This document shows, piece by piece, positions 1-64,000 of a stretch of 64,000 nucleotides of DNA. The position numbers were made by a program, and so were the translations under genes. Within the stretch, counting starts at the first letter, position 1. Every line of letters starts with the position of its first letter. The notes under the pieces were generated by a model. That model was not told the origin of the DNA, did no database searches, and worked only from the letters and a program-made list of their open reading frames with translations. The stretch comes from Alphaproteobacteria bacterium US3C007 (GTDB taxonomy: Bacteria; Pseudomonadota; Alphaproteobacteria; Rhodobacterales; Rhodobacteraceae), in the NCBI GenBank assembly GCA_034423775.1, contig CP139918.1:2728001-2792000 (forward strand). The letters run 5' to 3'.

Positions 1-198
1 GAGGGCAAAGAAGTCAAGAAATTGCCAATGTCTTTGGGTGAGGCGCTGAGCTATCTCGAGCAAAGCGAAGTGGTGCGCCGCGGCATGCCGGGCGAAATGT
101 ATCGTTTGTACCATGAATATAAATATGACGAATGGGCCCGCTTCATGTCCACGTCAACCGATTGGGACAATGAGATGTATATGGAGTGCTTGCCATAA
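1..198 (+). CDS. Type III glutamine synthetase-like protein (C-terminal 65 residues)
   Basis: The gene is cut by the left window edge; only the last 65 codons remain, open from base 1 to TAA at 196-198. The visible part ends in YMECLP, preceded by a helical region with YHEYKYDEW. That pattern fits the C-terminus of type III glutamine synthetases (GlnT) and the related gamma-glutamylmethylamide synthetases (GmaS). The three genes directly downstream are glutamate synthase-like subunits, and such clusters normally carry a GlnT or GmaS gene, which supports the call. The catalytic part lies outside the window, so ammonia-ligating and methylamine-ligating activity cannot be told apart here. Confidence 0.75.
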   Translation, partial: EGKEVKKLPMSLGEALSYLEQSEVVRRGMPGEMYRLYHEYKYDEWARFMSTSTDWDNEMYMECLP

Positions 199-62968: not shown

Positions 62969-63160
62969 TTATTCATCAGCAGCTTGAGAATAATCATTGC
63001 GTATCAGTTCGTGTGTTAGACGCTTTTTATATCTACGTTGTCTGCGCCTAGCTTTACTGGAGTTTGCTCTCCAGCCTTCTCGTTTATCTTGTACGAGATC
63101 ATCTAGGTCATCTGCTGTTTCTATGTATTCAGCGTCTGCTTCATAAGTTCTTCTTGCCAT
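62969..63160 (-). CDS. Small basic hypothetical protein (63 residues)
   Basis: The protein starts MARRTYEADAEYIETADD, then turns strongly basic (SSKARRRQRRYKKRLTHELI). The start at 63160 is preferred to 63178. Charge separation (acidic front, basic core) might suit nucleic-acid binding. The frame is short, so it could be spurious, but codon use is consistent and it is well isolated. Confidence 0.5.
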   Translation of the reverse strand: MARRTYEADAEYIETADDLDDLVQDKREGWRANSSKARRRQRRYKKRLTHELIRNDYSQAADE

Positions 63161-63289
63161 GCCTAAAACGTAGGTCAAATCTGAAAAAAGTCAGGTAGGG
63201 CGACCGTAGGTTAGAAAGCAAGATGATCATTTTGAAAGCCACGCGCATACAGTTGGCTACGTTTATAAGCTTTGCTTTTGTAACCGTGC

Positions 63290-63398
63290 AAAAAAGAAAA
63301 GGCGATGCTGTGAAGCACCGCCAGTAAATTGAAAACTTCTGGGAGGAAGAATTTTCAAATGAAACAAGCAATCTGGGAGGAGTAACTTGTTGTCAATA
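63290..63398 (-). ncRNA. CcsR/alpha-r14-like small RNA with two CCUCCC-loop hairpins and a terminator
   Basis: Read on the minus strand, AACAAG/CTTGTT (63391-63363) forms a hairpin whose loop is TTACTCCTCCCAGATTG. GAAAATTCTTC...GAAGTTTTC (63356-63331) forms a second hairpin with CTCCCA in the loop, and GGCGGTGCT-TCAC-AGCATCGCC (63322-63301) is an intrinsic terminator followed by TTTTCTTTTTT. Repeated anti-Shine-Dalgarno CUCCUCCC loops with a terminator are the hallmark of alpha-r14/CcsR sRNAs, which are stress-induced in Rhodobacter. A promoter fits: TTGACC at 63433-63428, 17 bases, then TTATTG at 63410-63405, giving a start near 63398. Length would be about 110 bases. Targets would be mRNA ribosome sites or a protein partner. 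Confidence 0.85.
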
Positions 63399-63412
63399 AA
63401 CTAGCAATAATT

Positions 63413-63423
63413 CTGCATTGCAG
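63413..63423. promoter_or_regulatory. PhaR-like CTGC-N3-GCAG motif overlapping the sRNA promoter
   Basis: CTGCATTGCAG matches the CTGC-N3-4-GCAG site reported for the polyhydroxyalkanoate regulator PhaR; a second TTGCAATGCTGC lies nearby (63435-63446). No phasin gene is visible to either side. It sits in the spacer of the proposed sRNA promoter, so it may control that RNA. Confidence 0.3.
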
Positions 63424-63577
63424 CAATGGTCAAGATTGCAATGCTGCTATGCGGAAATCACATAACCCATTGCAAAGGTTGGATTATATATAGGGCAATA
63501 AAGCGGCTTGTTGCTCAAAAAGTAATCTAATTATAAAAACACATTGCTTTGCTTATGAATAATAGGCTCGAAGTTTA

Positions 63578-63619
63578 GTGGCCAGGCTCTCTGTTTGGGA
63601 GGAGAGCGGGTCTGGTCAC
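63578..63619. other. Long stem-loop with CUCCUCCC on one strand
   Basis: GTGGCCAG-GCTCTC (63578-63591) pairs with GAGAGC-(GGGT)-CTGGTCAC (63602-63619), about 13 pairs with a bulge and one mismatch. The minus-strand loop and stem contain CTCTCCTCCC. It may be a further CcsR-like module or an RNA hairpin of a plus-strand transcript. No terminator is adjacent. Confidence 0.45.
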
Positions 63620-63713
63620 ATAAATAATTATTTAACTTTTCTTTTTATTGCTTGGGTTCCTACTGAAAGAACGGGTTATTCGTTTTGCTTTAAAGTTAGG
63701 GTTACGCCTGTGC

Positions 63714-63878
63714 TTCTTCTGGCGCAGAAGAAAGACGACGAAAAGTGCAATGCAAGAGAAGAGTATAAGGTCAAACATGTCTGGTTACTTCTGGTTTGGA
63801 CATAGTGGGATACGCTGGCCACGAGGCCTTCGCGTTCATGGATTCCAAGGCCAGCTTTGCGGACAAAGCCGCTTTTTT
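63714..63878 (+). ncRNA. Candidate structured RNA ending in an intrinsic terminator
   Basis: Four clean inverted repeats occur in order: TTCTTCTG-GCG-CAGAAGAA (63714-63732), ATGTC...GACAT (63777-63803), GCTGGCC...GGCCAGC (63814-63855) and GCTTTG-CGGA-CAAAGC (63854-63869) followed by CGC and six T. Overlapping open frames show no recognisable domain. The order of hairpins and a strong terminator suggests a non-coding transcript, or the remains of a decayed element. The 5' end is unknown. Confidence 0.45.
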
Positions 63879-63908
63879 CTGCATAGCTGATTAGTGGCCG
63901 CTCTTGGC

Positions 63909-64000
63909 TTAACGACCACTTGTGCTGGCCTCAGCGACAGTCATCTTAAATGCAATCTCGAGTACATTTGCAACGTCGTCATTAGAAACACCTTCTCTTT
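63909..64000 (-). CDS. Partial gene at the right window edge (C-terminal 29 residues)
   Basis: A minus-strand frame is open from the window edge to TAA at 63911-63909 and would encode an ending with NDDVANVLEIAFK and MTVAEASTSGR. The acidic-helical composition looks like real coding sequence. Too little is visible for any identification. It is convergent with the candidate structured RNA terminator. Confidence 0.5.
   Translation of the reverse strand, partial: REGVSNDDVANVLEIAFKMTVAEASTSGR

Follow-up and report, generated by a model that had tools for sequence, protein, structure and literature searches.

A candidate PhaR-type operator at a predicted twin-CCUCCC small RNA gene of a Rhodobacteraceae bacterium

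The window analyzed here (64,000 nucleotides of contig CP139918.1 of Alphaproteobacteria bacterium US3C007, Rhodobacteraceae) most likely encodes, at 63290-63398 on the minus strand, a small RNA of a known stress-RNA type with CCUCCC loops, and the spacer of its promoter holds a candidate PhaR-type operator. RNAs of the CcsR and ar14 types occur widely among alphaproteobacteria; they are described chiefly in stress and nutrient responses and present very general anti-SD loops. PhaR is a PHB-sensing repressor. The explanation that we favor, and hold to be reasonably probable given the sequence, is that the window copy is a CcsR-type anti-SD RNA of roughly 100 nt, devoid of DUF1127, that would be repressed by PhaR and released as PHB accumulates. 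The anatomy of the gene, its sister loci, the operator match, the CCUCCC modules before phaR and the complementarity of the phaR ribosome site were all computed and are laid out below.

The small RNA gene and its promoter

The predicted gene consists of two CCUCCC-loop hairpins and an intrinsic terminator, all on the minus strand. Hairpin 1 (63360-63395) has the loop CUCCUCCC, with CCUCCC at 63380-63375, hairpin 2 (63329-63358) has the loop UUCCUCCC, with CCUCCC at 63346-63341, and the terminator (63290-63322) comprises a stem at 63322-63301 and a U-rich run to about 63290. Promoter-like hexamers (63405-63433), TTGACC at 63433-63428 and TTATTG at 63410-63405, are separated by a 17-nt spacer, and the predicted transcription start, read directly from the sequence, lies near 63398. 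This set of hairpins, terminator and promoter had been described in an earlier note on the same DNA, and both the direct reading and the fold confirm it: the energy of 63398-63286 is -28.3 kcal/mol compared to a shuffle mean of -15.5 (z -4.74; none of the 200 shuffles equals it). The two loops described there as alike do both carry CCUCCC, but only the first has the sequence CUCCUCCC, and the absence of genes holds for likely genes, although a mechanically called 76-aa frame with a TTG start (63141-63371) overlaps the locus.

The hairpins reported in the note are thus present, but a further CCUCCC hairpin went unmentioned. This hairpin (63578-63619, minus strand) precedes the small RNA by about 180 nt, has the loop CUCCUCCC and lacks a terminator. 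Its 20-nt core is identical in a paralog at C1:2675482 and also in genomes G001 and G002; relative to the paralogs (L009, L017, L018), the stem shows a C-G to T-A swap and one broken pair. We considered this hairpin as a widespread or mobile element and rejected the idea, given that, of 61 genomes, only 3 have a site with at most 2 mismatches, and these 3 belong to the same genus.

The individual motifs are no more frequent than expected by chance. CCTCCC within a loop occurs at 4 places in the window, compared to 3-10 in 20 dinucleotide shuffles; a CCTCCC loop followed by a terminator occurs at one place, as it does in 6 of the 20 shuffles; and a twin CCTCCC (gap 15-45) is present once, while 11 of 100 shuffles contain one or more. 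The combination of YGCRNYGCR with a twin CCTCCC is found once in the window versus once in 100 shuffles combined. The case for the RNA therefore rests on its whole anatomy and on its relatives.

Most of the 17-nt spacer is filled by the putative operator TGCTGCAATGCAGAA (63411-63425, minus strand), which contains CTGCNNNGCAG and has a core, TGCAATGCA, that fits YGCRNYGCR. The spacer segment CTGCAATGCAG matches CTGCNNNGCAG, which PMC12542648 gives as the sequence bound by PhaR of Rhodobacter sphaeroides. The same paper presents the Sinorhizobium meliloti PhaR motif as a 21-letter palindrome with the core YGCRNYGCR; against it the window is exact in the core and shows, by eye, one mismatch at the outer edge. 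In phaP1 and phaP2, two PhaR boxes are described as flanking the -35 element (PMC12542648). Upstream of the -35 in the window lies the element CGCATAGCAGCATTGCA (63437-63453, minus strand), which is common to DUF1127-CCUCCC loci and holds two imperfect boxes, CGCATAGCA and AGCATTGCA.

The short box is not rare, with 4 exact copies of CTGCNNNGCAG in the 64-kb window, and the extended box with at most 2 mismatches occurs at 436 sites per strand versus 262 in the control. The perfect form TTYTGCRNYGCARAA is present at 2 places in the 3.62 Mb genome (one in the reversed control): before bdhA and at the sister locus C1:1233797, where it precedes the first loop by 43 nt. This sister shares the PhaR-type palindrome with the phaP promoter. 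No perfect box was found near the loops of C1:2045222 and C1:38752, and the locus type from which the window copy probably derives (L009 type; see below) has imperfect boxes only.

The genome encodes the components that such an operator would call for. The phaR gene (C1:122021-122611) scores 148.7 bits with TIGR01848, above the cut-off, and its product is 99% identical to PhaR of Rhodobacteraceae bacterium SB2 (LGRT01000023.1). The adjoining phaP scores 33 bits with PF09361, also above the cut-off, and fails the NCBIfam phasin model (20.5 versus 30.2). The spacer of the phaP promoter, TTGCAA-17-TATATG, contains a perfect core, and a further box lies upstream of it; the layout is the same as in the window, and its core is the TGCAATGCA of the window operator. 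A 3-hydroxybutyrate dehydrogenase gene, bdhA, is identified by TIGR01963 (352.5 bits). Just past bdhA, the gene with the perfect PhaR-type box, a second DUF1127 gene (L038 1698-1910, minus strand; PF06568 26.4 bits) is found.

Relatives in the genome, in known RNA families and across the Rhodobacteraceae

The pattern CCTCCC-20..50-CCTCCC identifies six loci in the genome, compared to three for the reversed pattern. Besides the window, these are C1:38752, C1:1233797, C1:2045222, C1:2675697 and C1:1931595. The last is probably a chance occurrence, being nearly unchanged in four genomes and folding differently; it may be coding. CCUCCC hairpins with a terminator behind them are possible folds of the other four, with the qualification that in some sister copies one or both hairpins are missing from the minimum-energy fold computed with flanks. 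At C1:38752 (L010) the twin CCUCCC lies directly behind a DUF1127 gene (PF06568 50 bits), and the locus scores 33.7 bits (E 9e-5) with Rfam CcsR1, below the cut-off of 65.3. The CcsR-like architecture suggested in the earlier note is thus borne out within the same genome.

The window RNA is not an isolated novelty, since it is a paralog of C1:2675680. The window copy aligns over its full length, including the promoter and the distant upstream hairpin, with this locus and its G001 and G002 orthologs at 74-76% identity (BLAST); alignment A1, in which L011 is misaligned, was left out of the counts. The C1:2675680 locus is present in all four genus genomes, whereas the window copy is found in both genomes of the same species (in G061 as L031) and was not found in the other two. 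The window copy is probably a species-level duplicate of the older C1:2675680 locus, without DUF1127. Indeed, none of the eight scanned neighboring frames matches DUF1127 in the profile scan, and a motif scan of the window finds none, although this motif misses some true cases elsewhere (L182); the description of the RNA as a stand-alone copy is upheld to this extent.

The kinship with CcsR and ar14 proposed earlier does not extend to the Rfam covariance models. For 63000-64000, ar14 (RF02344) gives 28.2 bits against a cut-off of 58.8, suhB/MmgR (RF00519) gives 27.9 against 41, and CcsR1 (RF02791) is absent from the matches even at E<=10. Covariance membership in any of these three families is rejected on the scores, although the window RNA resembles them. 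It is similar in layout to the CcsR1-4/ccaF1 locus of R. sphaeroides (CIN1 of the cuckoo RNA family), which also combines CCUCCC-loop hairpins with a terminator but, in contrast to the window copy, has a DUF1127 gene (ccaF1) in front; its promoter is described as RpoHI/RpoHII type in PMC10253847, as opposed to the TGC-rich PhaR-type operator in the window. The ar14 RNA NfeR1 likewise has three hairpins and anti-SD CCUCCC loops; in PMC10746234, CCUCCUCCC appears in all three hairpins, compared to CCUCCC in two in the window RNA, and NfeR1, which represses ntrB, is controlled by LsrB and NtrC, not PhaR. The S. meliloti RNA MmgR (suhB, ar8; RF00519) shares with the window RNA an anti-SD motif and a PhaR-type promoter site, the latter being a sequence match only in our case, and the window RNA shows a pair of CCUCCC hairpins in place of the suhB layout. 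According to PMC12542648 and PMC7143759, MmgR is tied to PHB storage and repressed by AniA/PhaR, which binds a site in its promoter (PMC12542648). Of the PhaR (AniA) regulon, the operator type, the repressor gene and the phaP promoter layout are all present in this genome. In the open-access literature that we searched, neither twin-CCUCCC RNAs nor CCUCCC hairpins of phaP 3'UTRs are reported to belong to the PhaR regulon. Elsewhere in the genome, the RNA candidate at L004 1480-1565 (C1:2049165; suhB 24.3 bits) shows by eye a hairpin, a single-stranded UUUCCUCCC and a terminator, and looks closer to MmgR/suhB than the window RNA does; no obvious PhaR box is seen there.

Among 394 family genomes, the box combined with a twin CCTCCC is found at 10 sites in 9 genomes, compared to none for the reversed-pattern control. 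By inspection, three of these belong to this genus, L069 and L075, from other genera, resemble stand-alone RNAs that end in a terminator, L070 and L073 fall within DUF1127 arrays, the palindrome there forming the stem of a hairpin, L071 and L072 are less clear, and L074 is probably coding. A looser box pattern yields 21 sites in 20 of the 394 genomes versus 11 in the control. Seven are shared with the stricter search, four are phaP 5'UTRs in which CCUCCC lies after the box and ahead of the start codon (L159, L165, L166, L173), one is a phaP 3'UTR (L175) and one a stand-alone RNA (L160); the remaining 8 of 21 are coding or unclear (L161, L162, L164, L168, L171, L172, L174, L178). With PF09361 (cut-off 24.9), L166 (28.8) and L173 (28.5) score above and L159 (19.8) and L165 (24.3) below.

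The upstream promoter element, searched as TTYNGCATAGCRGCATTG with at most one mismatch, has 11 occurrences, spread over 9 of the 37 genomes searched, compared to 1 for the control. CCTCCC follows at 10 of the 11 sites including the window, that is, at 9 of the 10 others, L183 being the exception, which adds to the case for the CcsR-like architecture. Arrays of at least four CCTCCC, up to 15, accompany five of the sites, a DUF1127-like frame was found by motif at five, and the DUF1127 loci have a variant second box with one extra base. When the window RNA with its promoter was searched by BLAST over 101 genomes, 9 genomes matched. Outside the genus, promoter-only matches were obtained in 3 genomes: in L194 the match precedes a phasin-like gene (by eye), then a CCUCCC hairpin and terminator; in L195 (G082:C1), a CCUCCC pair next to a DUF1127-like frame; and in L199, a DUF1127-like frame with a CCUCCC array. 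The matches L196, L197 (a CCTCCC stretch without box or DUF1127) and L198 (a terminator end) were taken for chance.

At L195, the CCUCCC pair with the shared promoter element (1498-1670) is located upstream of the DUF1127-like frame (2015-2262), which has its own CCUCCC array; the arrangement is possibly an intermediate between the DUF1127-linked and stand-alone forms. The CCTCCC arrays themselves count 15 motifs in L073 (G008:C38), 8 in L070 (G182:C148) and roughly 8-11 in L190 (G009:C6); many of these motifs lie in hairpins where folded, DUF1127-like frames precede the arrays of L070 and L073 by eye, and two L073 stretches, at 74.4 and 63.8 bits, score above the cut-off of the Rfam ar14 model.

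CCUCCC modules before phaR and the phaR ribosome site

The same motif was examined in 80 named PhaR loci, the titles of which nearly all give Rhodobacteraceae or one of its genera. The gap between phaR and the upstream frame, which was mechanically taken as phaP, could be delimited in 78 of them (L113 and L152, lacking an upstream frame, were dropped). CCTCCC is present in 67 of the 78 gaps, compared to a mean of 5.7 and a maximum of 12 in 200 dinucleotide shuffles; the mirror string CCCTCC occurs in 18 of 78 and GGGAGG outside the last 45 nt in 2. Some upstream frames are too long for phaP, and the examples L112, L119, L127 and L135 are all among the 11 gaps without CCTCCC. In 64 of 66 cases the motif lies in a hairpin loop (mean 16.7, maximum 25 in 30 flank shuffles), and a stable hairpin and T run follow 65 of the 66 sites under a lenient rule (3 T) that has no shuffle control. 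The stem positions shift between species, and alignment A2 of 50 phaP 3'UTR modules misplaces the first stem. The differing stems and the retained loop suggest that the module is an RNA element. In L089, a CCUCCC hairpin is found in the phaP 5'UTR and also in the 3'UTR.

The distance from CCTCCC to the downstream phaR start is roughly 100-210 nt in the majority of the 80 loci, and in 59 of 80 GGGAGG, the complement of the CCUCCC loop, is located within 60 nt of the start of the phaR match. Where phaR starts were modeled (49 of 80 loci), GGGAGG precedes 32 of the 49, compared to 11 of 285 other frames in the same loci and none of the 35 modeled phaP starts. In the present genome, the phaR ribosome site reads UGGGAGGU, complementary to CCUCCCA. 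When predicted pairing to the window loops is compared with that of 45 proxy genes, phaR comes third, phaP 15th and bdhA 17th. Both the pairing and the start-modeling counts use a presumed anti-SD tail.

The proposed circuit and its alternatives

Transcription of the window RNA, binding of PhaR, the response to PHB and the targets are predicted from these sequence comparisons. With little PHB, PhaR would sit on the operator and keep the window RNA off. As PHB granules form, PhaR would be titrated onto them, so that phasin mRNA and the window RNA would be made together, and translation of target mRNAs could be blocked by pairing of the CCUCCC loops to ribosome sites of the GGGAGG type. The phaR mRNA is itself a candidate target, and pairing at its ribosome site would lower PhaR further. 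Feedback of this kind resembles the NfeR1-ntrB loop shown in PMC10746234, and the proposed PhaR control is comparable to the wiring of rhizobial MmgR. It counts against this explanation that an anti-SD loop can pair with many mRNAs, that phaR ranks only third against the 45 proxy sites and that the window copy was found in a single species.

The operator might instead belong to another regulator with a TGC-rich palindrome, which we consider rather unlikely. Before the DUF1127 arrays, the conserved sequence CTGCATAGCRGCATTG...TTGTGCANNYGCAG exceeds the PhaR box and its second half is spaced differently; a related but different regulator is conceivable because the boxes of the parent locus are imperfect and the second half is variant at the DUF1127 loci. 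Set against this, the window box is an exact CTGCNNNGCAG whose core is also found in the phaP promoter of the same genome. Another view, which builds on the earlier note, takes CTTGACC as an RpoH -35. Heat or singlet oxygen would then induce the RNA, as with CcsR1-4, and the palindrome would be incidental or serve another factor. The shape of the RNA, as in CcsR, agrees with this view, but conservation of the promoter does not support it: the L018 ortholog of the parent locus reads CTTATGC, having lost the TTG, the sister locus type C1:1233797 has no comparable -35 by eye, and the TGC-rich palindromes are kept where the -35 is not. We regard RpoH control as unlikely.

It is also conceivable, but quite unlikely in our estimate, that the PhaR link is real while the CCUCCC hairpins act mainly in cis, stabilizing phaP and DUF1127 messages as 3'UTR or terminator elements or masking the phaR ribosome site in a phaP-phaR read-through RNA, in which case the window copy would have no targets in trans and its transcript would be a leftover. 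The spacing of CCTCCC and GGGAGG before phaR, the phaP 5'UTR hairpins of the four looser-pattern loci and the double occurrence in L089 fit such a role. It is harder to reconcile with the copies that lie away from such genes and have promoter-like sequence and a terminator (the window, L012, L069, L075, L160), and PMC8625941 and PMC10746234 describe an action on other genes for relatives of the CcsR and ar14 kinds.

Returning to repression of the window RNA by PhaR, placement in a PHB circuit with phasin, phaR and bdhA would supply CcsR/ar14-type RNAs with carbon storage as a concrete signal and phaR as a testable target, and would tie a stress-RNA type to carbon storage in a marine-type bacterium. 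It also suggests that Rhodobacteraceae have an equivalent of the PhaR-small RNA wiring of rhizobial MmgR in which another RNA is used. Only tentatively do we extend the proposal to CCUCCC-loop RNAs as an RNA arm of the PhaR/PHB circuit across Rhodobacteraceae, in which phaP 3'UTRs, stand-alone twins and DUF1127 arrays would be PhaR-controlled and pair back on the GGGAGG site of phaR, forming a double-negative switch that might lock the storage state.

With respect to genomic context, the small RNA gene is adjoined by a gene for a TetR-like regulator (TetR_N 23.2 versus 24; a weak match, at 24.3 bits far below the cut-off, to the acrylate regulator AcuR), which occupies 63909-64000 of the window on the minus strand and continues in L036 to 2535.
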